Below, in pieces: positions 9,959 to 22,616 of a stretch of 35,218 bases of DNA. Below the pieces are notes generated by a model. It had not been told where the DNA came from and did no database searches. It worked only from the letters and a program-made list of their open reading frames with translations. How positions within the stretch are numbered: the stretch's first letter is position 1; every line of letters starts with the position of its first letter. Location of the stretch: positions 1 through 35,218 of the IMG/VR virus record IMGVR_UViG_3300009149_000134; one strand, written 5' to 3'. Position numbers and translations under genes: made by a program. Source of the DNA: a virus.

Positions 9959-10071
9959 AACTTCAGAACCCAGATGCTTTGATGCAAGCGGTGAGAAGAG
10001 AGAAAACTATTCCTCCAAGAGATATTCTTATCTCTTCTTCTCTCCCTTGTAGTCATGCCAAGGAGAGAATT
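9959..10071 (+). promoter_or_regulatory. Long 5' leader of the NAD salvage operon
   Basis: About 113 nt of untranslated leader with a hairpin AAGAGAT ATTCTT ATCTCTT at about 10009-10030 and purine-rich GAGAAGAGAG facing a pyrimidine-rich stretch ahead of the AAGGAGAG ribosome site. Pairing could mask that site. An in-frame ATG at 9979 inside the leader is not preferred. No known riboswitch consensus is recognised. Confidence 0.35.
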
Positions 10072-10974
10072 ATGCAACCAGTACAAAAAGAATACGATGT
10101 AGGTGTTATCGTTGGTAGATTTCAAGTACCAGATCTACATGAAGGTCATATTGACCTGATCGATAATGTTGTTAGTCAACACCAGAAGATAATCATCTTC
10201 CTGGGTTTGTCTCCTACAAAATCGACGAGGAATAACCCTCTCGACTTTGAGGCGAGGAAGAATATGATTCTCGCAAGGTATCCCAACATAATCGTTCTAT
10301 ATATCGACGATTCACCAAGTGATAAGATATGGAGTAAAAAACTCGATAATCAAATCGGGCATGTCACTTCGCCAGGAAGTACGGTTGTTCTTTACGGTAG
10401 CAGAGATTCGTTTATCAAACATTATGATGGTCGTTATGATACTTACGAACTTGCACAGAAGGTTTATGTATCGGGCAGTGAGATACGCAAACAAGTAAAC
10501 GCATCGGCAAAGACTTCGAGAGATTTCCGCTTAGGTGCAATTGTTACAGTCTATAACCAGTATCCACATGTGTTCCCTACAATTGATGTGGCAATCTGGA
10601 ATGAAGATCATACAGAACTTCTTATGGCAAGAAAAGAAGAAGAAAGTAAGTATAGGTTCATTGGTGGGTTTGCAGATAAGACAGGATCGTATGAGCAAGA
10701 TGTAAGACGAGAGGTAAGCGAAGAGGCACACATTGAGATCAGCGATCCAGTTTATGTTGGTAGTGGTGAGGTAGACGATTGGCGATACCGCAAAGAGATG
10801 GATGGAATAAAAACAATTCTTTTCGAAGCGAAGTATGTCCATGGTAGACCAACACCAGACGATGACATTGTTGAACTACAATGGATCAAAACAAAAGACA
10901 TTGACAAACAGATAATAGACACACATAAGTTTTTGCTCCAAATGTTGGTAGCAAAGTATCCAGAACGCTTTTAG
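10072..10974 (+). CDS. nadM: Bifunctional NMN adenylyltransferase / Nudix hydrolase
   Basis: A 300-residue two-domain enzyme. Residues 9-160 form the nucleotidyltransferase domain with GRFQVP (15-20), HEGH (23-26, the HxGH ATP site) and VSGSEIRK (133-140). Residues 165-300 form a Nudix domain with the REVSEE core at 213-218, although the upstream Glu of the classical GX5E part is replaced. Family members make NAD from NMN and ATP; the Nudix half hydrolyses ADP-ribose or related nucleotides. ATG 10072 with AAGGAGAGAATT is clearly the start. Together with the next gene it forms a two-step route from nicotinamide to NAD. Confidence 0.94.
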   Translation: MQPVQKEYDVGVIVGRFQVPDLHEGHIDLIDNVVSQHQKIIIFLGLSPTKSTRNNPLDFEARKNMILARYPNIIVLYIDDSPSDKIWSKKLDNQIGHVTSPGSTVVLYGSRDSFIKHYDGRYDTYELAQKVYVSGSEIRKQVNASAKTSRDFRLGAIVTVYNQYPHVFPTIDVAIWNEDHTELLMARKEEESKYRFIGGFADKTGSYEQDVRREVSEEAHIEISDPVYVGSGEVDDWRYRKEMDGIKTILFEAKYVHGRPTPDDDIVELQWIKTKDIDKQIIDTHKFLLQMLVAKYPERF

Positions 10975-11000: not shown

Positions 11001-12368
11001 ATGGATATCAAGGTAATCGAAGCAGTAGACAGTTACAAATTGGGTCACTACAATCAGTATCAAGACGATACTGAAGCAGTGTACAGTTATTTCGAGTCGC
11101 GCAATGGCGCACAGTTTGATGAGACTGTATTCTTTGGTCTTCAAGCATTGATCAAGAAATATCTTATTGGAGTGGTTGTCACTCAGGAAGATGTGGATGA
11201 AGCAGCAAAAGTTGCAGCAATACACTTTGGAAATCCTGATATCTTCAATAAGAAAGGTTGGGAGTATATCGTCAATGAATGTGACGGTAAACTGCCTCTA
11301 AGAATTCGAGCAGTACCAGAAGGAACTCCTGTCACAATCAATAACGTTCTTATGACAGTTGAGAACACAGATCCCAATTGTTATTGGTTGACCAACTATG
11401 TCGAGACTCTCTTGACACAGGTTTGGTATCCTTGTAACGTTGCTACACTCAGTAGACACGTTAAGAAGATGATGAAGAAATATCTTGAGGATACAGCAGA
11501 AACACTTGACGCACTCCCATTCATGCTGCATGACTTTGGTTGCCGTGGTGCTACGACAATGGAAGCGGCGCAGATTGGTGGTATGGCACACATTGTAAAC
11601 TTCATGGGTACTGATACGGTCCCTGCTCTTACGGGTGCAATGAGATTTTATAATGCCGAGGTTTGTGCCTTCAGCGTTCCTGCAACAGAACACAGTGTAA
11701 TGACAGCACTTGGACCAGAAGGAGAATGTGATATCTTCGAACAACTCCTTGACAAGTATCCTACAGGCATCCTTAGTGTTGTGGGTGACAGTTATGATAT
11801 CTTCAATGCGGCAGAGCACATTGTAGGTACTAGTTTGAAGGATCGTATTCTGGAGCGTGATGGTGTATTCGTCCTCCGACCAGATTCGGGTGAACTAGTG
11901 AGTACTGTTTTGAGACTCCTTGAGATCCTTGGTCGTAAGTTTGGGACTACAGAGAACGCTAAGGGTTATAAGATTCTGAATCCTAAAGTGAAGATTCTTT
12001 GGGGTGATGGTCTTGACTACACAATGATCGAAGGCATCATGTGGGCAATGAAAAAGGAACGTTGGAGCATTGAGAATATTGTCTTCGGCATGGGTGGTGG
12101 TTTGCTTCAAAAGCACAATCGAGATACACAACGTAATGCGTTCAAGTGTTGCGCTCAGAAGCGTGATGGTGTTTGGTATGACATCTTTAAAGATCCCCTT
12201 GATAAGTCCAAGGTAAGTAAACGTGGGAAGTTGGGTCTGAAGGAAGTCAATGGTAAATTTGTAACAGTTGAAGAAAAAGATAATGAACTTCTTCAGACTG
12301 TTTTCGAAAACGGGGAATTGGTTACAGAGTATACATTTAATCAAGTTCGTGCAAACGCCGCTGTATAG
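11001..12368 (+). CDS. nadV: Nicotinamide phosphoribosyltransferase (NAMPT)
   Basis: A 455-residue enzyme with the complete NAMPT signature set: HDFGCRG at 177-183, GTDTVPA at 203-209, PATEHS at 227-232 (catalytic-type His), VGDSYD at 261-266, LRPDSGE at 292-298 and later GMGGGLLQKHNRDTQ. It converts nicotinamide and PRPP to NMN. It begins 26 bases after nadM behind AAAGGAGAAAGAA and is clearly co-transcribed. Coding is full length and intact. Confidence 0.97.
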   Translation: MDIKVIEAVDSYKLGHYNQYQDDTEAVYSYFESRNGAQFDETVFFGLQALIKKYLIGVVVTQEDVDEAAKVAAIHFGNPDIFNKKGWEYIVNECDGKLPLRIRAVPEGTPVTINNVLMTVENTDPNCYWLTNYVETLLTQVWYPCNVATLSRHVKKMMKKYLEDTAETLDALPFMLHDFGCRGATTMEAAQIGGMAHIVNFMGTDTVPALTGAMRFYNAEVCAFSVPATEHSVMTALGPEGECDIFEQLLDKYPTGILSVVGDSYDIFNAAEHIVGTSLKDRILERDGVFVLRPDSGELVSTVLRLLEILGRKFGTTENAKGYKILNPKVKILWGDGLDYTMIEGIMWAMKKERWSIENIVFGMGGGLLQKHNRDTQRNAFKCCAQKRDGVWYDIFKDPLDKSKVSKRGKLGLKEVNGKFVTVEEKDNELLQTVFENGELVTEYTFNQVRANAAV

Positions 12369-12377
12369 GATGGAATC

Positions 12378-13163
12378 ATGATTGAAAAAGAGAATCGTCG
12401 TTTTAAAAATGGTGTTGTCTATGCTCTTGAGACAGATGATGGGTATCCCGTTGAGGTAACTGATACATTTCTACCGTTCTATACTAAGGATGCAATTGGG
12501 AGAGGTCAGAACAGACTCGCCAATCATGAAGTTGGAAGTCGTAAAGAACGCTGGATGATTGGTGTCTCCTGTATGAGTGGTTGTCCTGTTGGGTGTAAGT
12601 TCTGTGCAACAGGGCAACTCAAGAGATGTATAAATCTTATGAGTATAGAGATCTTTGACCAGATCGACTTTGTGTTAAAAAATAATCCTCATTATGATCC
12701 AGAGGATACCCAAGAGTTCAAGATTAATTATACTCGTATGGGTGAACCATTTTTCAACCTAGAGGCGATAAGGGATGTGATTCATGAGATGGATATTAGA
12801 TATAAAAATGTTCATCACTATATCTCCACAATAGGAATAAAGGGATCGGACTTCTCGTGGATCAAAGACAATGTAACTCTTCAGATCTCGTTGCATAGTC
12901 TGGATGAGGAGAGAAGAAGAGAATTGATTCCGATCAAGAACCTGATGAGTCTAGAGGAACTTGGTCAGATCAGAACAGATAGTAAGTTGAAGACTACGTT
13001 GAATCTCACGTTAGTGGACGAGAAGGACTTTGATATAGAAAGATTAAAAGAACTTTTCGATCCAGAATACTTTTTTGTCAAACTGAGTCCTATCAATCCG
13101 AATGATGTGTCGGATGGAAATGAACTAGGTCTTGGTATCGTTAAGTCGGTTAACTTGGTCTAA
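12378..13163 (+). CDS. rlmN: RlmN-like radical SAM methyltransferase, main piece
   Basis: A 261-residue radical SAM protein with the cluster motif CPVGCKFCATG (Cys 69, 73, 76; CX3CX2C). It has an additional Cys65 near the place of the RlmN methyl-carrier cysteine, MGEP (NYTRMGEPFFN), STIGI, and LQISLHSLDEERRRELIPI, all RlmN landmarks. RlmN makes 2-methyladenosine at A2503 of 23S rRNA and A37 of some tRNAs. It lacks the usual N-terminal domain of about 100 residues and stops before the C-terminal catalytic cysteine, which is encoded by the next ORF. It follows nadV by nine bases. Confidence 0.88.
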   Translation: MIEKENRRFKNGVVYALETDDGYPVEVTDTFLPFYTKDAIGRGQNRLANHEVGSRKERWMIGVSCMSGCPVGCKFCATGQLKRCINLMSIEIFDQIDFVLKNNPHYDPEDTQEFKINYTRMGEPFFNLEAIRDVIHEMDIRYKNVHHYISTIGIKGSDFSWIKDNVTLQISLHSLDEERRRELIPIKNLMSLEELGQIRTDSKLKTTLNLTLVDEKDFDIERLKELFDPEYFFVKLSPINPNDVSDGNELGLGIVKSVNLV

Positions 13164-13174
13164 AGGAGAAAGAC

Positions 13175-13303
13175 ATGGATAAGATTCGTAAGGAATTGGA
13201 AGAGAGTGGGTATGATTTCGCCGTAGCAATCGCTACAGAAGCAGAGATCGAAGCAGGGGCAGCATGTGGGCAACTCAGTCTCATTGTGGAGCAGGAAAAA
13301 TAA
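13175..13303 (+). CDS. RlmN-like C-terminal piece (separate ORF)
   Basis: A 42-residue ORF, MDKIRKELEESGYDFAVAIA and on to GAACGQLSLIVEQEK. The AACGQL string matches the C-terminal RlmN motif that holds the second catalytic cysteine (Cys355 in E. coli); here it is Cys31. It lies in another frame from the main piece, 11 bases after its stop, and has its own strong ribosome site (AAAGGAGAAAGAC). So the enzyme is either made as two polypeptides or the gene was broken by a frameshift that happened to leave a good start. Confidence 0.85.
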   Translation: MDKIRKELEESGYDFAVAIATEAEIEAGAACGQLSLIVEQEK

Positions 13304-14274: not shown

Positions 14275-14348
14275 ACTGGTATAGTATAATGGCATTACTC
14301 TGCCCTCATAAAGCAGAAACGATGGTTCGATTCCATCTACCAGTACCA
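14275..14348 (+). tRNA. tRNA-Met(CAT)
   Basis: Acceptor ACTGGTA / TACCAGT, A73, encoded CCA. Anticodon loop CTCATAA, canonical TGG D-loop and TTCGATT T-loop. Elongator Met is likeliest; a lysidine-type Ile2 reading cannot be excluded. Confidence 0.9.
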
Positions 14349-14359
14349 ATTAAAAATAT

Positions 14360-14435
14360 TGCGGAATAGAGTACTGGCAACTCGTTGAGCCTCATAAGCT
14401 CGAAGATGCAAGTTCGAATCTTGCTTCCGCCTCCA
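14360..14435 (+). tRNA. Initiator-like tRNA-fMet(CAT)
   Basis: The acceptor has a T1-C72 mismatch above six good pairs, the key initiator feature. Anticodon loop CTCATAA flanked by TGAGC / GCTCG, followed by GAAG as in bacterial tRNA-fMet. The three G-C pairs of the classical initiator anticodon stem are not all kept. CCA is encoded. Confidence 0.8.
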
Positions 14436-14445
14436 AAATTAGAAT

Positions 14446-14519
14446 GCCGATATAGTATAATGGTATTACAGTTGTTTTGTAAGCATCTAATCTCAGTTCG
14501 ATTCTGAGTGTCGGCTCCA
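14446..14519 (+). tRNA. tRNA-Thr(TGT)
   Basis: Acceptor GCCGATA / TGTCGGC, T73, CCA. Anticodon loop TTTGTAA with one mismatch in the stem; T arm CTCAG TTCGATT CTGAG. Confidence 0.9.
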
Positions 14520-14528
14520 AAATTAAAT

Positions 14529-14614
14529 GCCGTTTGTGTCACTCTGGTGAGTGTGAGAGTCTGTAAAACTCTTCCCTTTGGGGCAGTCAGGTTCGACTCC
14601 TGAAAGCGGCACCA
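14529..14614 (+). tRNA. tRNA-Tyr(GTA)
   Basis: Long-variable-arm tRNA, acceptor GCCGTTT / AAGCGGC, anticodon loop CTGTAAA, variable arm about CCCTTTGGGG, canonical T-loop, CCA. Confidence 0.93.
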
Positions 14615-14621
14615 AAAATTA

Positions 14622-14656
14622 TGGGGAAAGGATGCGAAAGCGTCTGGACTCCACCA
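14622..14656 (+). ncRNA. 35-nt mini tRNA-like hairpin ending in CCA
   Basis: TGGGG pairs with CTCCA (one G-U), followed by CCA; inside, GATGC GAAA GCGTC forms a GNRA-capped stem. It occupies a normal slot between two tRNA spacers but lacks D, anticodon and T arms. A decayed tRNA is the alternative. Confidence 0.5.
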
Positions 14657-14664
14657 AATTAAAT

Positions 14665-14739
14665 ACCTCGTTGGTGAACTGGCTATCACACAACTCTGTC
14701 TAAGTTGAGTAAGGGGATCGATACTCCTACGGGGTGCCA
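14665..14739 (+). tRNA. tRNA-Asp(GTC)
   Basis: Acceptor ACCTCGT / ACGGGGT, G73 as expected for Asp, CCA. Anticodon stem CAACT / AGTTG with loop CTGTCTA. T-loop ATCGATA (T54 changed). Confidence 0.92.
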
Positions 14740-14749
14740 AGATTAAGAT

Positions 14750-14824
14750 GGGACATTGGTGTACTGGTCAGCACAGGACTCTTATAAGGTTCTAGACAAG
14801 GTTCAATTCCTTGATGTCCTACCA
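14750..14824 (+). tRNA. tRNA-Ile(TAT)
   Basis: Acceptor GGGACAT / ATGTCCT, A73, CCA. Anticodon loop CTTATAA; T arm CAAGG TTCAATT CCTTG. It reads the rare ATA codon. Confidence 0.9.
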
Positions 14825-14834
14825 AAAATTAAAT

Positions 14835-14912
14835 GCTCGATTCGCCTAGTTGGTAATGGCACTTGTTTTACACACAAGAATAAGGTAGATTCGAATTCTA
14901 CATCGAGTACCA
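14835..14912 (+). tRNA. tRNA-Val(TAC)
   Basis: Acceptor GCTCGAT / ATCGAGT, A73, CCA. Anticodon stem CTTGT / ACAAG with loop TTTACAC. Confidence 0.92.
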
Positions 14913-14914
14913 TA

Positions 14915-15430
14915 TTATGCTAGACACGAAAGATTGTTTTTTGTCCAGTGTAGATAGAAGTGACAATTAGGACACAATACTACTAAATTTTCTAGTTTAT
15001 TGTTATTTCTATCTTTGTCAATATGATGTACTGTTAGTATTTCTGGATGTTCTTTATATCCACATTCTTTACAGATATGTCCATATTCGTTTAACGCGCG
15101 GTTACGGTAATCGTGTCTACCATTACCAGTACCATAATGATGTGGCATGATTTCAGATATACCCCCTATGCGTTGTGCAGCATCTTTGCATTTGCGAGTA
15201 CAGAAAAAAAGTCCAGACTTAGATGACTTTTGATGTACTGGTCTTTTATAAAACGGGGAGTCACAAAAAGCACAAACTACATTGGAATTATGATGTACAA
15301 GTATTTTACCCCATCGAAATTCCGAAGCACAGGGGTGACAACAAAATTTAGCGTTACCTCGTTTATGTTCTTTGAGGGATGCATCGAATACGATTTGACA
15401 GTTTAAACATTCTTTTTCGATTGTTTTCAT
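14915..15430 (-). CDS. HNH homing-type endonuclease with zinc-ribbon repeats
   Basis: A 171-residue protein starting MKTIEKECLNCQIVF behind AAGGAGTAACA. Three Cys clusters (CLNC, CCHPC, CAFCDSPFY...FFCTRKC) precede a C-terminal HNH motif: CKECGYKEHPE, ILTVHHIDKDRNNN, LENLVVLCPNCH. It is antisense to and inserted between tRNA-Val and tRNA-Ala, with two bases to the former and 17 to the latter. Free-standing HNH genes of this type spread by cutting alleles that lack them; the tRNA array is a common landing place. Confidence 0.92.
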   Translation of the reverse strand: MKTIEKECLNCQIVFDASLKEHKRGNAKFCCHPCASEFRWGKILVHHNSNVVCAFCDSPFYKRPVHQKSSKSGLFFCTRKCKDAAQRIGGISEIMPHHYGTGNGRHDYRNRALNEYGHICKECGYKEHPEILTVHHIDKDRNNNKLENLVVLCPNCHFYLHWTKNNLSCLA

Positions 15431-15447
15431 TGTTACTCCTTCAAAAT

Positions 15448-15522
15448 GTGGGGTTGGTGAAATTGGGATCACACTACGCTTGCAACGTAGAATTACGGGA
15501 TCGTACCCCGTACCTTACACCA
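15448..15522 (+). tRNA. tRNA-Ala(TGC)
   Basis: Acceptor GTGGGGT / ACCTTAC with two G-U pairs, A73, CCA. Anticodon arm CTACG CTTGCAA CGTAG; T arm ACGGG ATCGTAC CCCGT. Confidence 0.92.
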
Positions 15523-15530
15523 AAAATTAC

Positions 15531-15590
15531 TCTCTACTATATTTAGTGGAGTAAAGTGGATTTGAGCAAAGAAAAATTGCTCCACTTAAA
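15531..15590 (+). ncRNA. Two-hairpin spacer element (unknown)
   Basis: An imperfect hairpin TACTC...GAGTA followed by AAGTGG...CCACTT enclosing AGCAA / TTGCT. It fills a 78-bp gap between tRNA-Ala and tRNA-Asn where other gaps are about 9 bp. Could be a processing element or a small RNA. Confidence 0.4.
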
Positions 15591-15602
15591 AATTAAATAA
15601 AC

Positions 15603-15677
15603 TGGCGTGTAGTTCAACTAGTAGAATTTCGGTCTGTTAAACCGAAGATGTGGGAGCGAAGCCCACCGTGCCAGCCA
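15603..15677 (+). tRNA. tRNA-Asn(GTT), copy 1
   Basis: Acceptor TGGCGTG / CGTGCCA, G73 typical of Asn, CCA. Anticodon arm TCGGT CTGTTAA ACCGA. D-loop AACTAGTA lacks GG and T-loop is AGCGAAG; both non-canonical. Confidence 0.87.
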
Positions 15678-15686
15678 AAATTATAT

Positions 15687-15761
15687 TCCACGGTAGCTCA
15701 ATGATCGAGCGTTCGCCTGTTAAGCGAGAAGATGTTGGTTTGAATCCAACCTGTGGAGCCA
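15687..15761 (+). tRNA. tRNA-Asn(GTT), copy 2
   Basis: Acceptor TCCACGG / CTGTGGA, G73, CCA. Anticodon arm TTCGC CTGTTAA GCGAG. D-loop AATGATC (GA for GG) with T-loop TTTGAAT (T for C56). Confidence 0.9.
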
Positions 15762-15771
15762 AAATTAAAAT

Positions 15772-15846
15772 GCGTGATTGGTGAAATGGATATCACAGGA
15801 CTCTACGAAAGTTCAGTTACAGGTTCGAATCCTGTATCGCGTACCA
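15772..15846 (+). tRNA. tRNA-Arg(ACG)
   Basis: Acceptor GCGTGAT / ATCGCGT, A73, CCA. Anticodon loop CTACGAA; A34 would need TadA deamination to inosine. Canonical elbow. Confidence 0.9.
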
Positions 15847-15855
15847 ATATTAAAT

Positions 15856-15951
15856 GCTGATGCAGATCGTTGAGTCGAGATAGCATCCGAGAACAGTCGG
15901 TAGCCTTTCGCAGGGTCCATCAAGTAGGTTTGATTCCTACCGTCAGCTCCA
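15856..15951 (+). tRNA. Atypical 96-nt tRNA with expanded anticodon region
   Basis: Acceptor GCTGATG / CGTCAGC, T73, CCA and T arm GTAGG TTTGATT CCTAC are sound. The middle is too long. If (C)ATCC pairs with GGGT(C), the anticodon loop has about 17 extra bases holding CCGA / TCGG, and the loop end TTTCGCA would give anticodon TCG (Arg). The identity is uncertain. Confidence 0.65.
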
Positions 15952-15960
15952 ATATTAAAT

Positions 15961-16031
15961 ACGGATGCCTCTGAGAGGTGAACGGTTTCCAAAACCATTC
16001 TTGGTAGGTTTGATTCCTACTATCCGTGCCA
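15961..16031 (+). tRNA. tRNA-Trp(CCA)
   Basis: Acceptor ACGGATG / TATCCGT, G73 typical of Trp, CCA. Anticodon loop TTCCAAA with one stem mismatch. Short D arm and T-loop TTTGATT. Confidence 0.85.
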
Positions 16032-16041
16032 AAATTTAAAT

Positions 16042-16115
16042 AGTGCATGGGGTGTGATGGAAGCACACAACTTTTGGGAAGTTGGGGAGCAGTTCGATTC
16101 TGACATGCGCTACCA
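16042..16115 (+). tRNA. tRNA-Pro(TGG)
   Basis: Acceptor AGTGCAT / ATGCGCT, A73, CCA. Anticodon arm CAACT TTTGGGA AGTTG, G37 as in Pro tRNAs. T stem is weak. Confidence 0.87.
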
Positions 16116-16124
16116 ATATTAAAT

Positions 16125-16199
16125 GCTGCGTTAGTAGACTAGTGATCACGCCACTCTGATACAGTGGAGAAGATGGAGCGTTACCATCACGCAGTACCA
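16125..16199 (+). tRNA. tRNA-Ile(GAT)
   Basis: Acceptor GCTGCGT / ACGCAGT, A73, CCA. Anticodon arm CCACT CTGATAC AGTGG. D-loop contains CTAGTG rather than TGG and T-loop is AGCGTTA. Confidence 0.87.
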
Positions 16200-16293
16200 A
16201 TTTTGACGCGAGAGACTTGGGTTTGAATCCCAACCTGTAGCAACGGTGTTGTACGGGATCGTCTAGTGATAGGATACTCGCGTATTTGTTTTT
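16200..16293 (+). ncRNA. Candidate permuted tRNA (3' half before 5' half), no. 1
   Basis: GCGAG (16208-16212), then a T arm TTGGG TTTGAAT CCCAA and CCTGTA (16234-16239); a 12-nt linker; then TACGGG (16252-16257), a D arm GTCTAGTGATAGGATA, and CTCGC (16277-16281). TACGGG pairs with CCTGTA and CTCGC with GCGAG (CTCGCG / CGCGAG is 6 bp), so the two parts fold as one tRNA with an open anticodon loop. The boundaries are exactly those that processing of the flanking tRNAs would release. A recombination relic is the alternative. Confidence 0.55.
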
Positions 16294-16371
16294 TGTGAAG
16301 TCGTCTAAAAACACAGGACGCTCCTGTAGCACGGGAGAAATGATGGCGTAGTGTCCCATCCTTCGCGACCA
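16294..16371 (+). tRNA. Elbow-less tRNA-like gene (anticodon loop GTAGCAC)
   Basis: Acceptor TGTGAAG / CTTCGCG, A73, CCA; D stem GTC/GAC; anticodon stem CTCCT / GGGAG. If standard, the anticodon is AGC (Ala). The D-loop has no GG and the T-loop is nine bases, CGTAGTGTC. Charging identity is uncertain. Confidence 0.65.
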
Positions 16372-16379
16372 TATTATAT

Positions 16380-16457
16380 CGGGAAGTAGTTCAAAATCTA
16401 GAACAGCTCTCACCTGGGAGAGAAGACGATGGGTATAATGTCCATCCTACCCGACCA
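16380..16457 (+). tRNA. Elbow-less tRNA-like gene (Pro-like?)
   Basis: Acceptor CGGGAAG / CTACCCG with one mismatch, A73, CCA; D stem GTTC / GAAC with loop AAAATCTA; anticodon stem CTCTC / GAGAG around a six-base loop ACCTGG. T-loop nine bases, GTATAATGT. The C1-G72 pair and TGG hint at Pro, but the loop is abnormal. Confidence 0.6.
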
Positions 16458-16471
16458 TTATTGAGGATGCA

Positions 16472-17185
16472 ATGAGAGACTTCAATAAAGTTTTAGGAAC
16501 TGGTCTAGGAAAGACTGGAACCACCTCTTTGCATTCTGCGTTACAAATTCTAGGCATCAAGACTCTACATAGTAGACCTTACTTCGATAACATACGAAAG
16601 AAGGAAGATGCGAAGGGTTTGAAACCATATTCGATGTTGAATAACAAGTGGAGAGGTTATTCGGATGTCTCTTCTGATTACAGACACTTTGAGAAGTGGA
16701 ATCCGAATAGTCTTTACATTGAAACGTATCGTGACAGAGAAGAGTGGATAGATTCTGTTATCACTCATTGTCCATGCTCAAGGTATCCAGATAAGAAATT
16801 GGGTCGTAAGCAGATTGGTGAGTGGAAGCGAAAACACGATCCAGAGATTCGAAAGTATTTTGTTGGTAGAGATGATTTCCTACTAATGAATATTGCATCA
16901 GGAGATGGATGGGAAGTCCTTTGTAAATTCCTTGAAGTTGATATCCCAAAGAAACCATTTCCTAGATCTAATCAGATTGGTAAGAAGAGAAAGATCATTG
17001 GTAACATCTTCAAGTATCATGGATGGTATCAAAAGAGAATAAAAGAAAATACTGATTTCGAAAAGTTCTTTTGTTTAGTTGGAATCAAGTCAGAGAGAAG
17101 CAAGTCATCTTTTCTGAAATACATGTCTGTAGGTAGGACACCCGAAGAGATGATACAGGATGTATCAAATAAAAAAGAGTTATAA
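16472..17185 (+). CDS. Sulfotransferase-family protein
   Basis: A 237-residue protein. The N-terminal P-loop-like GTGLGKTGTTSLHSALQILG (about 8-28) is the 5'-phosphosulfate loop that binds PAPS. SLYIETYRDREEWIDSVI fits the 3'-phosphate region, and GDGWEVLCKFLEVDIPKKPF with PRSNQ is the conserved C-terminal sulfotransferase signature. It would transfer sulfate from PAPS to a sugar, protein or small molecule. Ribosome site GAGGATGCA. It sits alone inside the tRNA array, 14 bases after a tRNA. The acceptor is unknown; glycan or surface modification is a guess. Confidence 0.82.
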   Translation: MRDFNKVLGTGLGKTGTTSLHSALQILGIKTLHSRPYFDNIRKKEDAKGLKPYSMLNNKWRGYSDVSSDYRHFEKWNPNSLYIETYRDREEWIDSVITHCPCSRYPDKKLGRKQIGEWKRKHDPEIRKYFVGRDDFLLMNIASGDGWEVLCKFLEVDIPKKPFPRSNQIGKKRKIIGNIFKYHGWYQKRIKENTDFEKFFCLVGIKSERSKSSFLKYMSVGRTPEEMIQDVSNKKEL

Positions 17186-17202
17186 AAAATCGAGAATTAC
17201 TA

Positions 17203-17230
17203 TTGACTTCGTTTGAATTTATGGTATAAT
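17203..17230 (+). promoter_or_regulatory. Sigma70-type promoter
   Basis: TTGACT, 16 bases, TATAAT, followed by AGTAACAATGAAGTAAGGG, very like the start of the noncoding RNA at 13352. A leader of about 80 nt with a short hairpin (GAGGT / ACCTC) precedes the next gene. Confidence 0.87.
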
Positions 17231-17317
17231 AGTAACAATGAAGTAAGGGAGTGCGAGAGGTTGGACCTCGACTGAAAATGATTTGAGTTGGATTCTAGCA
17301 CAAGAGGAGAGATGATT

Positions 17318-17485
17318 ATGAAGGTTTGGATCGTTAGTTATGATACTGGTTACGATGCAAGTGATATTGTAGAGGTATTTGCAACTGAGGATCTTGCTAA
17401 GAATTTTATCGCAAGTCAGAATCCTTGGAAGACTGATTACTCTCCTCAGAGTCTCGACTACTGTGATTATGATGTTAAAAACTAA
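17318..17485 (+). CDS. 55-residue protein (unknown)
   Basis: MKVWIVSYDTGYDASDIVEV and on; soluble alpha/beta, acidic, aromatic-rich tail. AGAGGAGAG suits ATG 17318; an earlier ATG 17312 is too close and the 65-codon long form lacks a site. It lies directly before a tRNA-Leu and probably shares its transcript. Confidence 0.75.
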   Translation: MKVWIVSYDTGYDASDIVEVFATEDLAKNFIASQNPWKTDYSPQSLDYCDYDVKN

Positions 17486-17487
17486 AT

Positions 17488-17564
17488 GGTCCTGTACTCC
17501 AATTGGCAGAGAGGTCAGTTTAAGACACTGAATGTTGTAGGTTCGACTCCTATCAGGACTACCA
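17488..17564 (+). tRNA. tRNA-Leu(AAG), short variable arm
   Basis: Acceptor GGTCCTG / CAGGACT, A73, CCA. Anticodon arm TCAGT TTAAGAC ACTGA. Only about five variable-loop bases, unusual for Leu. A34 would need deamination. Confidence 0.85.
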
Positions 17565-17611
17565 TTTTGATAAATTAGGAAACATTTATGTTACCTATAC
17601 ACTATATGTCT

Positions 17612-17619
17612 CCTAAATA
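17612..17619 (+). promoter_or_regulatory. Late promoter-like CCTAAATA
   Basis: CCTAAATA 18 bp before ATG 17638 of the HNH gene. Confidence 0.4.
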
Positions 17620-17637
17620 CTATAAAGGAGATCCAAT

Positions 17638-18102
17638 ATGGGGATTAGGAAATATACAAAAGAGTTGTTAGAAGAACACACTAAGAACAATTTTTCAATT
17701 GCAGGAGTTCTTAGAGATTTAAAGTTGAAGCAGAGTGGTGGTAATCATTATCATATTTCAAATAGAATAAAAGAATACGATATTGATATTTCACATTTTA
17801 CTGGTCAAGGATGGTCTAAAGGTAAGAAACATAATAGAAATAAAAAAATACATTTAGAAGAGATACTGGTTAGGAATTCTACTTACGCTAGACATAATTT
17901 GAAAAGAAGACTCTTAAATAATGGAATGTTACAAAATATTTGCAGTTCTTGTGGTATAGTGGAATGGAATTATCAACCGTTAAATATGGAACTAGATCAT
18001 ATCAACGGTATAGCAAACGATAACAGAATAGAAAACATTAGAATGTTATGTCCGAATTGTCACAGTCTGACTAAAACATTTGCTGGAAGAAATAAAAACT
18101 AA
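17638..18102 (+). CDS. HNH endonuclease
   Basis: A 154-residue protein with AAAGGAGATCCAAT before ATG 17638. The N-terminal 60 residues hold a helix-turn-helix-like segment (SIAGVLRDLKLKQSGGNHYH); the C-terminus has CSSCGI, MELDHINGIANDNRIENIRM and LCPNCHSLT, the zinc-binding HNH fold. It lies between two Leu tRNA genes that share acceptor stem and D arm, as expected for a mobile endonuclease gene inserted in duplicated tRNA sequence. Its stop codon is three bases before the next tRNA. Confidence 0.92.
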   Translation: MGIRKYTKELLEEHTKNNFSIAGVLRDLKLKQSGGNHYHISNRIKEYDIDISHFTGQGWSKGKKHNRNKKIHLEEILVRNSTYARHNLKRRLLNNGMLQNICSSCGIVEWNYQPLNMELDHINGIANDNRIENIRMLCPNCHSLTKTFAGRNKN

Positions 18103-18104
18103 AT

Positions 18105-18182
18105 GGTCCTGTATCCCAACTGGCAGAGGAGACACGTTTAGACCGTGTTAATGTAAGGGTTCGACTCCCTTCAGGACTACCA
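18105..18182 (+). tRNA. tRNA-Leu(TAG), short variable arm
   Basis: Acceptor GGTCCTG / CAGGACT, A73, CCA. Anticodon arm ACACG TTTAGAC CGTGT; variable region TAATGT. It reads CTA/CTN leucine codons and is not a stop suppressor. Confidence 0.88.
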
Positions 18183-18358
18183 AATATTCGCGAGAGATGC
18201 TGGTTCAAGTCCAGCAAGGATGTAGCGCATGTAAATGCACTTTTACCAGATGCGTCTTCTTTGAATTCGAAGTGCTCGATCCACCTGCGGGGGGATTGAT
18301 CGAAATCAAAAAAGAAGATCCGAATCGTCTAAAGGTAGGACACTCGCACTATTATTAT
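18183..18358 (+). ncRNA. Candidate permuted tRNA, no. 2
   Basis: GCGAG (18190-18194), T arm GCTGG TTCAAGT CCAGC and GGAT come first. After about 96 nt with hairpins (GCAT GTAA ATGC; TCTTCTTT / AAAGAAGA) follow ATCC (18318-18321), D arm GTCTAAAGGTAGGACA and CTCGC (18343-18347). Anticodon-stem halves match; only four acceptor pairs form. It has the same layout as the 16200-16293 element, again exactly between two tRNAs. Confidence 0.45.
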
Positions 18359-18434
18359 GCTCCTGTAGTCTAATAGGATAGGCATCGGTCTTCTAAACCG
18401 AACCATGCAGGTTCGAATCCTGTCAGGAGTGCCA
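18359..18434 (+). tRNA. tRNA-Arg(TCT)
   Basis: Acceptor GCTCCTG / CAGGAGT, G73, CCA. Anticodon arm TCGGT CTTCTAA ACCGA. It reads AGA/AGG. Confidence 0.92.
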
Positions 18435-18443
18435 AAATTAAAT

Positions 18444-18519
18444 GTACTCTGAGCAAGTCTGGTGATTGCGCCTGTCTGAAGAACAGGAGAATTCAGTTCG
18501 ATTCTGAGAGAGTACACCA
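18444..18519 (+). tRNA. tRNA-Phe(GAA)
   Basis: Perfect acceptor GTACTCT / AGAGTAC, A73, CCA. Anticodon arm CCTGT CTGAAGA ACAGG. Confidence 0.93.
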
Positions 18520-18523
18520 AAAT

Positions 18524-18651
18524 TGTGTTGCTGTGTAGAGCGATAAGTAGATTATATTGTGGGGCGCACATGGTATAGTCGGTAGTTGCTTATCCAATAG
18601 GTGGGAGAGTTGAATCTAACTCGCAAGTGAAAGACCACTCGAAACAACACA
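18524..18651 (+). ncRNA. 128-nt structured RNA in the tRNA array (unknown)
   Basis: TGTGTTG pairs with CAACACA at the ends. Inside are CTTAT CCA ATAGG, GAGTT GAATCT AACTC and AGTG / CACT hairpins. It has standard tRNA-type spacers on both sides but no T-loop, anticodon loop or CCA. Confidence 0.55.
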
Positions 18652-18663
18652 TTAAAATTAAAT

Positions 18664-18737
18664 GTCCCAGTGGTGTAATGGTAGCACGATAGATTTTCAG
18701 TCTGTAGATCGGGGTTCGATTCCCCGTTGGGATTCCA
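18664..18737 (+). tRNA. tRNA-Glu(TTC)
   Basis: Acceptor GTCCCAG / TTGGGAT, T73, CCA. Anticodon loop TTTTCAG; canonical TGG D-loop and TTCGATT T-loop. Confidence 0.91.
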
Positions 18738-18743
18738 AATAGT

Positions 18744-18832
18744 GGGAAAGATGCCGACCTTTAGATTCGGTGAGAGGGTTGCTGGTTGCAAACAAAAATA
18801 TCCTTGATCGTTTAACTAAGACGTTCCCTTTT
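18744..18832 (+). ncRNA. Structured RNA ending in a T run (unknown)
   Basis: GGGAA (18744) pairs with TTCCC (18824-18828), followed by six T. Inside are CCGA / TCGG and TTGC / GCAA hairpins. It could be a small RNA with its own terminator or a terminator between tRNA sub-operons. Confidence 0.5.
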
Positions 18833-18841
18833 TTATTAAAT

Positions 18842-18918
18842 GTCCATGTAGAGTAACTGGTTAACTCGTCACTCTCTCTAAGTGAAGAATGTGGGTTCGA
18901 GTCCCATCATGGATACCA
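18842..18918 (+). tRNA. tRNA-Glu(CTC)
   Basis: Acceptor GTCCATG / CATGGAT, A73, CCA. Anticodon arm TCACT CTCTCTA AGTGA. Confidence 0.9.
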
Positions 18919-18927
18919 AAATTAAAT

Positions 18928-19002
18928 TACCCCGTAGTGTAATTGGCAACACAGGAGATTTTGATTCTCCTATTACAGGATCGTACCCTGTCGGGGTATC
19001 CA
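18928..19002 (+). tRNA. tRNA-Gln(TTG)
   Basis: Perfect acceptor TACCCCG / CGGGGTA, T73, CCA. Anticodon arm GGAGA TTTTGAT TCTCC; T-loop ATCGTAC. Confidence 0.92.
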
Positions 19003-19012
19003 AAATTAAAAT

Positions 19013-19087
19013 GGGTCTATATGTCAATGGTAGACGAACTGACTTTTAATCAGTAGATGATGGGTTCGATTCCCTCTAGACCCACCA
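19013..19087 (+). tRNA. tRNA-Lys(TTT)
   Basis: Perfect acceptor GGGTCTA / TAGACCC, A73, CCA. Anticodon arm ACTGA CTTTTAA TCAGT. Confidence 0.93.
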
Positions 19088-19096
19088 AAATTAAAT

Positions 19097-19172
19097 GGAT
19101 GCGTAACTCAATTGGAAGAGTATCCGACTCTTAATCGGAAGGTTGGAGGTTCGATTCCTCTCGCATCTACCA
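19097..19172 (+). tRNA. tRNA-Lys(CTT)
   Basis: Acceptor GGATGCG / CGCATCT, A73, CCA. Anticodon arm TCCGA CTCTTAA TCGGA. Confidence 0.93.
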
Positions 19173-19177
19173 AAATT

Positions 19178-19281
19178 AAAGTTGGAGACAATAGACCTAA
19201 TCAGTTACACGATATCCAACTTTGGGTTCCTGAACGATAATTCGTAAAGGGTGATTCCTTATCGACTCGTGACTCGAACCC
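19178..19281 (+). ncRNA. 104-nt two-domain structured RNA (unknown)
   Basis: AAAGTTGGA (19178) pairs with TCCAACTTT (19215), immediately followed by GGGTTC (19224) pairing with GAACCC (19276) and enclosing CGATAA / TTATCG. It lies between tRNA-Lys and the gene at 19319. No known family recognised. Confidence 0.55.
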
Positions 19282-19318
19282 TAGATATTCACAAGTGCTT
19301 TAAAAAAGGAGAGAAAGC

Positions 19319-19534
19319 ATGTCTAAGAAGCAGCGTAAGTCTGTGGAGAAGAAGATCGTCACGAAGACTGATAAGGTTGTTGATGAGAAGGTATTTTGTC
19401 AAGACTGTAAGACTCGCCAATGTGGTGCGAAGGCGATTCGGGATGGACGTTCTGGTTATTGCAGCACAACCGATTCGTTTGTAAATCGAAAGCATGAGAT
19501 TTGCGACAAGTACAAGAGTAAGAAGAATGCATAG
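19319..19534 (+). CDS. Basic Cys-rich 71-residue protein (unknown)
   Basis: Starts MSKKQRKSVEKKIVTKTDKV behind AAAAAAGGAGAGAAAGC. Six cysteines (FCQDCKTRQCG, YCST, EICDKYK) suggest a zinc-stabilised fold after a Lys-rich N-terminus. First of three overlapping genes. Confidence 0.82.
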   Translation: MSKKQRKSVEKKIVTKTDKVVDEKVFCQDCKTRQCGAKAIRDGRSGYCSTTDSFVNRKHEICDKYKSKKNA

Positions 19535-19715
19535 ACAAACTACTAATCAGCATTTGGTAGACATTTGTTTTGCGGTCGCTAATAGAGTATGGGAATACCA
19601 TAGTGATTTTAAAAACAATGAAGAGTTGATGGAATATGTTGCAGAACAATTAAGACTTTGTGGATTTGATACATCGCCATGTGGATCTTCTTGGGGAGTT
19701 TTAAAAGATGCTTAG
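19527..19715 (+). CDS. 62-residue protein (unknown)
   Basis: ATG 19527 overlaps the end of the previous gene by eight bases. The product MHRQTTNQHLVDICFAVANR... is helical with NNEELMEYVAEQLRLCGFD. An earlier in-frame start at 19494 would lie deep inside the neighbour and is rejected. Confidence 0.7.
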   Translation: MHRQTTNQHLVDICFAVANRVWEYHSDFKNNEELMEYVAEQLRLCGFDTSPCGSSWGVLKDA

Positions 19716-20316
19716 ATATGATAACAAGACAATTCTTTTTAACGAAGATGCATATAAGAAATCTAGTCTGTTTAAAAAGATTCGTGCTTGGTGGTGGGAC
19801 AGTTGGTTTTATAGCGAACTGTATCAATACTCTTGGTTGTATAATCTTCGTTGGCATGTAACTCATTGGTGGAGAAACGATCATTGGGTCAAGACTAATC
19901 TCCCAATCGGTTATCATGACAACCCTCAACTAATGGAGGATGCAATATTCTCTCTGGTTGAAAACTACATTGCTGCTGATCAAGAAGATGCATTCAACAA
20001 CGTAGTGATTGAAGGAGAAGAAAGAGAAACGATCATTGAGATCCTTCACTATTACAGAGTCTTGAAACCTGAACTTGAGAAACATTATGATGATATGTTG
20101 AATGAAGCGTTTGGAGATGATTGTGATTGGAAATTTACACCATGTCCAGACCATCCAGGATTCAGTTCTATGGATACATCTTATACTGGTGATCTAACAG
20201 TAGATCAAAGAAAAGATATTATAACATACGTTCACAAGATGGAAGAGTATATTTATATTAAGACACAAGAAATGCTAAAGAAATGTATAGATATTCGCAT
20301 GATTCTTTGGACATAA
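19708..20316 (+). CDS. 202-residue Trp-rich protein (unknown)
   Basis: Overlaps the previous gene by eight bases. Its N-terminal 60 residues are strikingly rich in Trp and Tyr (IRAWWWDSWFYSELYQYSWL). The rest is acidic and helical with CPDHPGFSSMD. No catalytic motif or signal peptide is visible; the aromatic stretch could be an interaction surface. Confidence 0.82.
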   Translation: MLRYDNKTILFNEDAYKKSSLFKKIRAWWWDSWFYSELYQYSWLYNLRWHVTHWWRNDHWVKTNLPIGYHDNPQLMEDAIFSLVENYIAADQEDAFNNVVIEGEERETIIEILHYYRVLKPELEKHYDDMLNEAFGDDCDWKFTPCPDHPGFSSMDTSYTGDLTVDQRKDIITYVHKMEEYIYIKTQEMLKKCIDIRMILWT

Positions 20317-20318
20317 AT

Positions 20319-20326
20319 TCTAAATA
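20319..20326 (+). promoter_or_regulatory. Late promoter-like TCTAAATA
   Basis: TCTAAATA 37 bp before ATG 20364. Confidence 0.45.
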
Positions 20327-20363
20327 AGAGTAGAGAAACATATTTTTATTCTAAGGAGATATC

Positions 20364-20570
20364 ATGTTGGAAAATCTATTGAGTATGATTAAGGATCGTG
20401 CGTCAAACGTTTTGGAACTTTTGACTTCTAAGAAAGCATTGGTAACAATTGGTGCTGCATTGTTGATCGTGTTGGTCGTTAAGACCACTCCTGCGATCAT
20501 CGGAGTTGCTGCTGTAGCAGTCGGTTACAATCTTGCCCAAGGTTATGTGGATGGCAAGAAAGAAGAGTAA
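20364..20570 (+). CDS. Small membrane-associated protein (unknown)
   Basis: A 68-residue protein with an amphipathic N-terminus (MLENLLSMIKDRASNVLELL) and a hydrophobic Ala/Val/Ile-rich stretch from about 26 to 58 (VTIGAALLIVLVV, AIIGVAAVAVGYN), then a charged tail. AAGGAGATATC precedes the ATG. It has its own late motif and is followed directly by tRNA-Gly. Possible roles include a minor virion or membrane protein. Confidence 0.8.
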   Translation: MLENLLSMIKDRASNVLELLTSKKALVTIGAALLIVLVVKTTPAIIGVAAVAVGYNLAQGYVDGKKEE

Positions 20571-20583
20571 TTAAAAACTAAAT

Positions 20584-20657
20584 GCGTCTATGGTGTAATG
20601 ATAGCATAAAAGATTTCCAATCTTTTGGTGAGGGTTTGAATCCCTCTAGACGCTCCA
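20584..20657 (+). tRNA. tRNA-Gly(TCC)
   Basis: Perfect acceptor GCGTCTA / TAGACGC, T73, CCA. Anticodon arm AAAGA TTTCCAA TCTTT. D-loop has TGA instead of TGG, and T-loop TTTGAAT has T56. Confidence 0.92.
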
Positions 20658-20667
20658 ATATTCATAT

Positions 20668-20743
20668 GGTGGGTATAGTTTAATGGTAGAACGAGAGTTT
20701 GTGGCACTCTAAGAGAGGGGTTCGATTCCCCCTATCCACCCCA
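20668..20743 (+). tRNA. tRNA-His(GTG)
   Basis: An extra G at -1 faces C73, the His identity feature; acceptor GTGGGTA / TATCCAC, CCA. Anticodon loop TTGTGGC. Confidence 0.92.
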
Positions 20744-20762
20744 ATATTTAAAGGAAAGTAAA

Positions 20763-20933
20763 TTGGAAAGAATAAGCATAGAAGATTTACAGGAACATTT
20801 CGACGAAGTAATGGACAGAGTAGAAGATGGAGAAAGTTTTATCATAACCAATGGTGGTGTTGACAAAGCGGTTCTAATACCATATTCTGATTATGAGGAA
20901 CTAACACAAGATGAAAAGAACAACGATGTATGA
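20763..20933 (+). CDS. Phd/YefM-type antitoxin (orphan)
   Basis: A 56-residue product from a TTG start behind AAAGGAAAG: MERISIEDLQEHFDEVMDRV, then DGESFIITNGGVDKAVLIPY and SDYEEL. This is the Phd/YefM N-terminal DNA-binding fold with the typical helix, beta hairpin (ESFIITNGG) and AVLIPYSDYEEL motif. The toxin-binding C-terminal tail is very short and no toxin gene follows; the next ORF is a zinc protein overlapping by 23 bases. It may neutralise a host toxin or act as a repressor. Confidence 0.8.
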   Translation: MERISIEDLQEHFDEVMDRVEDGESFIITNGGVDKAVLIPYSDYEELTQDEKNNDV

Positions 20934-21111
20934 ACCTTGTCCAATATGTTATGGGACAAAAAAGGTTAAGCAAAGAACTAAGTATTCAGATGGGTATCGT
21001 GAGACAACATTAAAGTGTTGGGCCTGTCGGGGATCTGGTTACGTAAACTACAGCGAGGGAATTGAGGTTACAGATCTTCACATTGCTGATATGTTTAATA
21101 GTCTAAAATAA
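20911..21111 (+). CDS. DnaJ-type zinc-finger mini-protein
   Basis: A 66-residue protein with two CxxCxG repeats, CPICYG (Cys10, 13) and CWACRG (Cys36, 39), forming one DnaJ-like zinc centre. The rest is acidic. It overlaps the antitoxin gene and ends just before tRNA-Ser. Such single-centre proteins bind unfolded protein or nucleic acid; specific role unknown. Confidence 0.82.
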   Translation: MKRTTMYEPCPICYGTKKVKQRTKYSDGYRETTLKCWACRGSGYVNYSEGIEVTDLHIADMFNSLK

Positions 21112-21116
21112 ATTAT

Positions 21117-21206
21117 GGATGGTTGTCCGAGTCTGCTTTAAGGAACTGGTTTTGAAAACCAGCATACCGCAAGGTAACGGGGGTTGGAATCCCTCACCAT
21201 CCGCCA
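21117..21206 (+). tRNA. tRNA-Ser(TGA)
   Basis: Long-variable-arm tRNA, perfect acceptor GGATGGT / ACCATCC, G73, CCA. Anticodon arm CTGGT TTTGAAA ACCAG. D-loop has GC for GG and T-loop TTGGAAT has G56. Confidence 0.92.
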
Positions 21207-21214
21207 AAATTAAT

Positions 21215-21302
21215 GGAAAGTAATGCAGTCTTGGTGACTGTCGCTGATTGCTAATCAGATGGCACTGAAAGGTGTTTGGTCCGATTCCAATGCTTTCCGC
21301 CA
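21215..21302 (+). tRNA. tRNA-Ser(GCT)
   Basis: Acceptor GGAAAGT / GCTTTCC, G73, CCA, long variable arm. Anticodon loop TTGCTAA; T-loop TCCGATT. Confidence 0.9.
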
Positions 21303-21309
21303 ATTATAT

Positions 21310-21383
21310 TCTGGTATAGTACAACGGTAGTACACTTGATTGGTATTCAAGAAATTTGAGTTCGACTCTCAATGTCAGATCCA
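21310..21383 (+). tRNA. tRNA-Thr(GGT)
   Basis: Acceptor TCTGGTA / TGTCAGA, T73, CCA. Anticodon arm CTTGA TTGGTAT TCAAG; T arm TTGAG TTCGACT CTCAA. Confidence 0.91.
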
Positions 21384-21403
21384 GATTAATATAGGTGATT
21401 GTA

Positions 21404-21472
21404 ATGAAGATTACATTTAGAGGGATTTTAGCATCTTGGTGGGAGATAATCAAAAGCATGTTTAGAATGTAA
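21404..21472 (+). CDS. 22-residue amphipathic peptide (possible)
   Basis: ATG 21404 follows TAGGTGATTGTA. The product MKITFRGILASWWEIIKSMF-RM is amphipathic and Trp-containing, like a small membrane-active peptide. Short length makes it uncertain. Confidence 0.4.
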   Translation: MKITFRGILASWWEIIKSMFRM

Positions 21473-21486
21473 GATCATGGAGAAAT

Positions 21487-21702
21487 ATGGTAAGTTTAGA
21501 TGATCTGGAGAAATACTGTAGAGGAAAGGGATTTAAACTTTCAGATTTAGCAGCCCGTGTTTATAGATTGATCAGAGAGAACAGAGGATCTTGTCTTTGT
21601 CGAGTTGAAGATATTATGTGTCCTTGTCCTATGCATATAAAAGAAATAGAAGAATTCGGTCATTGTAAATGCAATCTATTTGTAAGGGGAGAGAATGTAT
21701 GA
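21487..21702 (+). CDS. Ferredoxin-thioredoxin reductase catalytic-chain-like protein
   Basis: A 71-residue protein with three Cys-x-Cys pairs in the order and context of the FTR catalytic beta chain: SCLCR (36, 38), CPCPMH (45, 47) and GHCKCNLFV (60, 62). In FTR these ligate a 4Fe-4S cluster next to a redox-active disulfide that reduces thioredoxin. Length is shorter than plant/cyanobacterial FTR (about 115). GGAGAAAT precedes ATG 21487 and it overlaps the next gene by eight bases. A phage redox relay with a thioredoxin or glutaredoxin is plausible but unproven. Confidence 0.8.
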   Translation: MVSLDDLEKYCRGKGFKLSDLAARVYRLIRENRGSCLCRVEDIMCPCPMHIKEIEEFGHCKCNLFVRGENV

Positions 21703-22084
21703 TTACGTAGATCTATTTCCAGAATTCAAAGAGAGATATCCAGAACTATTTAATAGTGGTGATGAAGGAAGTTTTATTTCTTTTGAAATTGGGAATGGGT
21801 GGAAAGATATAGTTGATGCGGCATGTATGCAATTGTGGTTCATTGATGATGTACAGATTTCTCAGGTTAAAGAAAAGTTTGGTGGTCTACGAATCTATAC
21901 AAACACTTATACAGATGAAGTAAAAGAAATTATTAACGAAGCAGAAGTTGCTGCAAGTAAGACATGTGAATTCTGTGGATCAACTGAGGGTGTTACTAAC
22001 AAGAGTTTTAGAAACAAGGGTTCATGGATGAAGAGTCTATGTACACAATGTCGCGAAGAAAGAGATAAAAATACTCTCGATTAG
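21695..22084 (+). CDS. 129-residue protein with C-terminal zinc ribbon (unknown)
   Basis: N-terminal helical region with YPELFNSGDEG, a middle VKEKFGGLRIYTNTYTDEV and a C-terminal CEFCGS...LCTQCRE zinc ribbon. This arrangement recurs in large phages, but I know no function. Ribosome site AAGGGGAGAGA. The stop codon lies ten bases inside the following tRNA-Thr gene. Confidence 0.83.
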   Translation: MYDYVDLFPEFKERYPELFNSGDEGSFISFEIGNGWKDIVDAACMQLWFIDDVQISQVKEKFGGLRIYTNTYTDEVKEIINEAEVAASKTCEFCGSTEGVTNKSFRNKGSWMKSLCTQCREERDKNTLD

Positions 22085-22148
22085 TTTAGTGGTAGAATAG
22101 TTGTTTCGTAATCAACTGGCATCAGTTCGATTCTGATATCGAGATCCA
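22075..22148 (+). tRNA. tRNA-Thr(CGT)
   Basis: Perfect acceptor TCTCGAT / ATCGAGA, T73, CCA. Anticodon loop TTCGTAA; T arm ATCAG TTCGATT CTGAT. Its 5' end overlaps the preceding CDS. Confidence 0.91.
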
Positions 22149-22151
22149 AAT

Positions 22152-22229
22152 GAGCGTGTATCCCAACTGGCAGAGGAGGTTGTATCAAAAACAACTAATG
22201 TGAGGGTTCGACTCCCTCCGCGCTTACCA
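22152..22229 (+). tRNA. tRNA-Leu(CAA), short variable arm
   Basis: Acceptor GAGCGTG / CGCGCTT, A73, CCA. Anticodon arm GTTGT ATCAAAA ACAAC. D arm CCCAACTGGCAGAGGA and variable TAATGT shared with Leu(TAG). Confidence 0.88.
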
Positions 22230-22472: not shown

Positions 22473-22511
22473 GGTAAAGACTCCTTTGTACGAAAGAATA
22501 GTTCTCTAGGG

Positions 22512-22519: not shown

Positions 22520-22538
22520 ATACTGAAGAAATAAAAAT

Positions 22539-22615: not shown

Positions 22616-22616
22616 T

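Follow-up and report, generated by a model that had tools for sequence, protein, structure and literature searches.

Organization of the locus

The window, a 35,218-nt stretch of virus DNA (positions 1 to 35,218 of IMG/VR record IMGVR_UViG_3300009149_000134), contains an RlmN-like gene encoded as two ORFs. The pair and its surroundings are organized as follows.

9979..10974, + strand: cytidylyltransferase-like (NMN adenylyltransferase, NMNAT) and Nudix protein; a neighbour in 21 loci.
11001..12368, + strand: nicotinamide phosphoribosyltransferase (NAMPT), directly upstream of ORF1; a neighbour in 24 of 98 loci.
12378..13163, + strand: ORF1, RlmN-like radical-SAM core, 261 aa (TIGR00048, E 1.3e-17; the closest solved structures are RlmN 6fz6, 4pl1, 5hr6 and 3rf9).
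12453..12455, + strand: Glu26, equivalent by alignment to E. coli RlmN E105, the base for the methyl-accepting Cys (role from PMC9692996).
12561..12563, + strand: Gly62, at the position of the resolving Cys118 of RlmN (alignments, including to solved structures).
12582..12605, + strand: CX3CX2C (C69, C73 and C76), ligands for the 4Fe-4S cluster and no other Cys column of the core is fully conserved.
12732..12749, + strand: TRMGEP motif, with Arg120 where RlmN and the C118-bearing phage relatives have Gly or Ser (alignments).
13163..13168, + strand: AAGGAG, the strong Shine-Dalgarno sequence of ORF2 (read directly), overlapping the ORF1 stop.
13175..13303, + strand: ORF2, 42-aa C-terminal tail peptide comprising the last long helix, the last strand and the catalytic loop (profile comparison; conservation among relatives).
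13265..13276, + strand: CGQL, whose Cys31 corresponds to the methyl acceptor Cys355 of RlmN (profile match to RlmN tails; conservation).
14275..22694, + strand: array of 30 tRNA genes (ARAGORN), whose presence beside the split pair is not conserved.

The preliminary description of this region had proposed an RlmN-like core and a separate tail ORF in another frame, preceded by a strong ribosome binding site, and the analysis bore this out. The TIGR00048 RlmN model matches residues 55-195 of ORF1 (E 1.3e-17, 63.8 bits), and the ATG of ORF2 at 13175 lies 11 nt past the ORF1 stop codon (TAA, 13161-13163), in a frame different from that of ORF1.

ORF1 contains both CMSGCPVGCKFC and TRMGEP; the CX3CX2C cluster motif and the GEP motif are present in its RlmN-like core. 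As in class A enzymes, a radical-SAM domain is its only one, and neither a cobalamin nor a HemN domain is present; Pfam Radical_SAM, below threshold, was the sole relevant Pfam domain. The RlmN score is far under the curated cut-off of TIGR00048 (63.8 versus 290 bits), and the Cfr models, which match more weakly than the RlmN model, were not reached either (TIGR04432, 47.9 versus 550 bits; NF000424, 53.5 versus 530 bits).

ORF2 corresponds to the C-terminal tail of RlmN

The sequence of ORF2 is MDKIRKELEESGYDFAVAIATEAEIEAGAACGQLSLIVEQEK, with the C-terminal end EAGAACGQLSLIVEQEK. The 42-aa peptide alone gave no tblastn match among phages, so that a profile search was required, and no family was found for it in Pfam, PHROGs or NCBIfam. 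In an hhalign comparison, a profile built from 15 peptides matched the RlmN tails of seven full-length proteins with a probability of 94.9% (E 4.7e-8), and this profile-profile homology to a structural part of RlmN spans nearly the whole length of the peptide. Because of this match, and because the peptide accompanies the core across relatives, ORF2 is more than a chance reading frame. The match also places Cys31 at the position of Cys355, as had been anticipated when ORF2 was first described as carrying the second catalytic cysteine.

Predicted fold

An AlphaFold2 model was made of an artificial read-through of the in-frame TAA in relative L030, whose core is about 64% identical to that of the window. 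The fusion model (pLDDT 86.3, pTM 0.88) had as its best structural match 5hr6, the E. coli RlmN C118A protein cross-linked to tRNA (Z 26.0), residues 1-309 of the model aligning on residues 79-363 of the 5hr6 chain. Since model residue 1 aligns at RlmN residue 79, the relative has no counterpart of the RlmN N-terminal domain; ORF1 of the window begins at the same place as the modelled relative and likewise lacks the N-terminal helical RNA-binding domain.

The peptide supplies the last long helix (270-278), the last strand (282-285) and the CGQL loop of the model; the strand and loop were predicted with moderate confidence (pLDDT about 54-77). The break between core and peptide falls in a low-confidence loop immediately before the last long helix, in agreement with the position of the split given in the preliminary description. 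The fused relatives L199 and L200 cross the same junction into the same tail. For this single-chain predicted construct, the model shows compatibility with an RlmN-like assembly, not assembly itself.

The split is conserved among relatives

The first relatives, found by tblastn among phage records, were a crAss-like Bacteroides phage, a Moorella phage, and Pectobacterium, Yersinia and Vibrio phages. In the crAss-like Bacteroides phage and the Moorella phage, a separately annotated ORF of 40-43 aa with AACGQL lies directly behind the core. Further relatives were collected by scanning viral contigs and genome contigs with profiles of both parts. After removal of duplicates, the set comprised 98 distinct core loci from phages, prophage-like contigs and MAGs of many phyla.

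The peptide was found as its own same-strand ORF in 95 of the 98 core loci, and a fusion of core and peptide on one chain in none (0/98). Of the three loci lacking a peptide, two (L074 and L178) lie near a contig end; for the third, L088, none was found in its 155-kb record. Spacing between core and peptide ranged from -1825 to +5635 nt. All three relative frames occur among the 52 closely adjacent pairs (24, 21 and 7), while the peptide lies 230 to 5635 nt downstream of the core in 39 loci and upstream in four. Every peptide starts with ATG, and 58 of the 95 have a strong Shine-Dalgarno sequence. With a median dN/dS of about 0.14, the peptide is under purifying selection, as is the core (0.21), and the identities of the two parts increase together (Spearman 0.73, for pairs that are not independent). 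This search, which had been suggested together with the original observation, confirmed that the two-piece gene pair is conserved and goes beyond a frame break at one locus; the refuting outcome named there, a continuous ORF in close relatives, did not occur.

Several variants of the peptide were observed. Among phage or virus records searched over their whole length, seven contain it once each; Vibrio phage D479 has two in tandem, a duplicated module inside one small ORF with AACGQM in each copy (L005, 3803-4084). Two viral records of 101 kb and 213 kb (L126 and L169), which may be fragments, have a peptide without a detectable core; that of L126 sits between NMNAT and NAMPT. In the peptides of L058, L097, L067, L098 and L184 the CGQ sequence is altered or deleted (CSQL, CGM, deletion), possibly through decay or a change of chemistry.

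The resolving cysteine is replaced by glycine

RlmN and Cfr are the textbook examples of methyl transfer via a protein-bound methylcysteine. The tail Cys of class A methylases, which in E. coli RlmN is Cys355 and is deprotonated by Glu105, is methylated, converted to a thiomethylene radical and joined to the adenine; Cys118, described as indispensable, then lets the cross-link break (PMC9692996). The E. coli RlmN C118A protein forms no m2A in vitro (PMC5130265), and Cys105 of Cfr plays the same role as Cys118 (PMC13001441).

The position of Cys118 is occupied by Gly in all 56 representative split cores, and alignment to solved structures agrees. The Glu105 equivalent is Glu in 55 of these cores, with a gap in the remaining one. 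No conserved Cys besides the three cluster ligands was found in the split cores; a Cys three residues past Gly62, considered as a substitute, was rejected, as it is present in just 30% of the aligned rows. Class A enzymes are defined with two catalytic cysteines besides the cluster ligands (PMC9692996), and the split pair retains only the conserved one of the tail, which stands in CGQL as does Cys355 of RlmN, though on a separate polypeptide. The residue before MGEP is Arg in 59 of 59 proteins without Cys118 and Gly or Ser in 13 of 13 with it.

In the tree, RlmN lies outside, followed by the fused phage proteins with Cys118 and then by the group without it; one side of a weakly supported branch (64) consists of the split proteins. 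This placement suggests that the loss of Cys118 probably preceded the split or accompanied it, and a single ancient split would be the simplest reading of the tree. Loss of Cys118 does not need splitting, since fused relatives without it exist (L199, L200 and L227).

Comparison with known systems

The split pair shares with RlmN (TIGR00048) the fold, CX3CX2C, the GEP motif, Glu105, the SxH motif and a C-terminal CGQL with the methyl-accepting Cys. It differs in that the tail is a separate gene, Cys118 is Gly, the N-terminal RNA-binding domain is missing, Arg occupies the small-residue position of GxGEP, and the score is far under the cut-off. The rRNA C8 methylase Cfr has the same fold and cluster motif (fusion model versus 9p0p, Z 18.9), but is one chain with the resolving Cys105 and an N-terminal domain. 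The RlmN-like proteins of Salmonella phage Arash, Stenotrophomonas phage ANB28 and Vibrio phage 166E36-1 are also phage-encoded, with a related core and no RlmN N-terminal domain, but carry CGQL and the Cys118 equivalent on one chain. The fused proteins L199 (Myxococcales MAG), L200 (Bacilli MAG) and, more distantly, L227 (Bacteroides phage Versailles) lack Cys118 and have Arg before MGEP as the split cores do; their tail is on the same chain, and L199 and L200 have a Cys two residues further on.

The lipoyl synthase LipS1/LipS2 also uses two genes for a radical-SAM task usually performed by one protein (PMC9585515), but there both are full radical-SAM proteins, whereas here a core is paired with a catalytic tail. 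A literature search that covered few subscription papers found neither a split RlmN nor phage RlmN-like proteins without Cys118 described, which is weak evidence of novelty.

Genomic neighbourhood

The tRNA array of the window begins about 1 kb downstream of the pair. ARAGORN assigned its 30 genes to 19 amino acids, without Trp, and not to the full set of 20 reported previously. Because tRNA genes lie near only 9 of 60 relatives, the array is not evidence for a tRNA substrate. A general tie of the split pair to tRNA arrays was accordingly rejected. A full RlmN above the family cut-off was found in seven of the eight host genomes checked.

The commonest neighbour among the relatives is rS1, a MoaA/viperin-like radical-SAM protein of ~250 aa, present in 26 loci; a class I methyltransferase of 150 aa is found in 24 loci and a second radical-SAM protein, rS2, in 16. 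Of the recurrent neighbours, the window has only NMNAT and NAMPT. Core and peptide are apart in 41 loci, and in 28 of these rS1 (usually with the methyltransferase) and/or rS2 lies in between; most loci in which the two adjoin have neither rS1 nor rS2 nearby. In 12 of the 16 rS2 loci, an ORF ending in Cys lies just upstream of rS2, often with a RiPP-precursor-like tail such as DPCGHGGGYRGNPC.

Genes inserted between core and peptide include a recurrent two-gene unit of rS1 and the ~150-aa class I methyltransferase (L028, L046, L057, L173-L182, L189, L193 and others), and a phage-borne pair formed by rS2 and a protein of roughly 95-210 aa with a Gly/Ser/Cys-rich tail ending in Cys, which resembles a RiPP precursor and its maturase (L026, L078, L080, L085, L112, L118, L125, L129, L132 and L142). 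In L085 (7118-8110) rS2 continues in frame into the peptide, which retains its own Shine-Dalgarno sequence and ATG; this could be a fusion or a lost stop codon.

Some further features were recorded in these genomes. A tmRNA gene is predicted in L084 (2602-2976), a viral contig that carries tRNAs and a homologue of RtcB besides the split pair. Another virus contig with the split pair (L031) encodes, from about 9907, a second RlmN-like protein of 290 aa that is fused and has Cys118 and CGQF. In OR529408.1 (L230), an RlmN-like protein near tRNA genes (96510-97469) is labelled prohibitin family protein, apparently a mislabel. In the window itself, the 848-aa terminase large subunit (28903-31449) has an apparent intein-like insertion in its ATPase motif (GKALSLDTP... 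to ...LIPTHNTTA), and two related proteins (25248-26141 and 26685-27341) contain long Ser/Asp-rich repeats (SSSSDSESSSSSSDSSPSSSDSSD).

Discussion

The arrangement as two genes is conserved, both pieces are homologous to RlmN, and Cys118 and the N-terminal domain have been lost. The explanation that we favour, and consider likely, is that ORF1 and ORF2 jointly constitute a single class-A-like radical-SAM enzyme. The Cys-bearing RlmN tail would then have been turned into a separate, replaceable peptide acting as a detachable Cys methyl carrier. From the homology we infer complex formation, Cys methylation and radical attack: the core would hold the 4Fe-4S cluster and SAM, and the peptide would dock to provide the last helix, the last strand and the catalytic loop. 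A first SAM would methylate Cys31 of the peptide, with Glu26 as the base; a second would yield the 5'-deoxyadenosyl radical that converts the S-methyl group to a thiomethylene radical, and this would attack an sp2 carbon of the substrate. Judging by kinship, the substrate is most likely a nucleobase. Points that speak against this explanation are the fused relatives that lack Cys118, the peptides of L126 and L169 in records with no detectable core, the core of L088 with no peptide, and the few peptides with an altered or deleted CGQ.

Since the resolving Cys118 is Gly, the reaction probably ends differently from that of RlmN. Another group may replace Cys118, Arg120 being a candidate, or the peptide may remain on the substrate and a fresh peptide take over. 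The latter outcome, in which the adduct is left unresolved for want of Cys118 and the roughly 40-aa peptide stays covalently on an RNA base or nucleotide, seems to us quite doubtful. It would account for the lack of Cys118 as well as for the gene being separate; yet the fused C118-less relatives show the loss without the split. If true, a cheap separate tail gene would let a C118-less enzyme turn over, in contrast with the self-trapping of E. coli RlmN C118A, and the phages would have a system conjugating a peptide to a nucleobase.

The preliminary description went further in proposing a two-subunit RlmN. A strict form of this explanation, in which the pair makes m2A in 23S rRNA or at A37 of tRNA, with the small peptide as its regulatory switch, is unlikely. 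The fold, CX3CX2C, Glu105 and CGQL are as in RlmN, and a tRNA array adjoins the pair in the window. Against it stand the Gly in place of a residue described as indispensable (PMC9692996), without which E. coli RlmN makes no m2A in vitro (PMC5130265), the missing RNA-binding domain, the RlmN that 7/8 host genomes already have, and the scarcity of tRNA genes near the relatives (9/60). What stands of the proposal is the conserved two-piece pair and the catalytic tail; that the pair is an RlmN making m2A at A37 is made doubtful by the change of Cys118 to Gly, the absent N-terminal domain and the sub-cut-off score.

It appears rather improbable, too, that, as in RiPP pathways, the peptide is the substrate and, once the core has modified its conserved Cys, also the product, perhaps with participation of the neighbouring radical-SAM enzymes and methyltransferase. 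The gene order is compatible with a RiPP precursor and its radical-SAM maturase: one or two other radical-SAM genes stand between core and peptide in 28 of the 41 separated loci, a precursor-like protein ending in Cys precedes rS2 in 12 of 16, rS2 of L085 reads into the peptide, and the peptide is tandemly duplicated in D479. However, nearly the entire peptide has its homologue in a structural part of RlmN, and selection constrains it about as strongly as the core, unlike a leader with a variable core, and the side-by-side loci mostly have no rS1 or rS2 nearby.

A sequencing error, a programmed frameshift or the decay of a gene, any of which the nearly touching ORFs in different frames might suggest in the window, was rejected as exceedingly improbable, because the break is shared by 95 loci in which frames and distances vary and the peptide, with its own start and ribosome site and under purifying selection, lies up to 5.6 kb away or upstream.

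Returning to the detachable methyl carrier, these findings identify a widespread phage-borne family, present in many unrelated phages, in which the catalytic Cys is on a separate small gene and the Cys that completes the reaction is absent. It would offer chemists a natural case where the carrier can be added independently of the catalyst, and it poses the question of how a class-A radical-SAM enzyme behaves when the cross-link cannot resolve in the usual way. The pair also marks a recurrent phage neighbourhood of NAD salvage, several radical-SAM enzymes and Cys-tailed small proteins.
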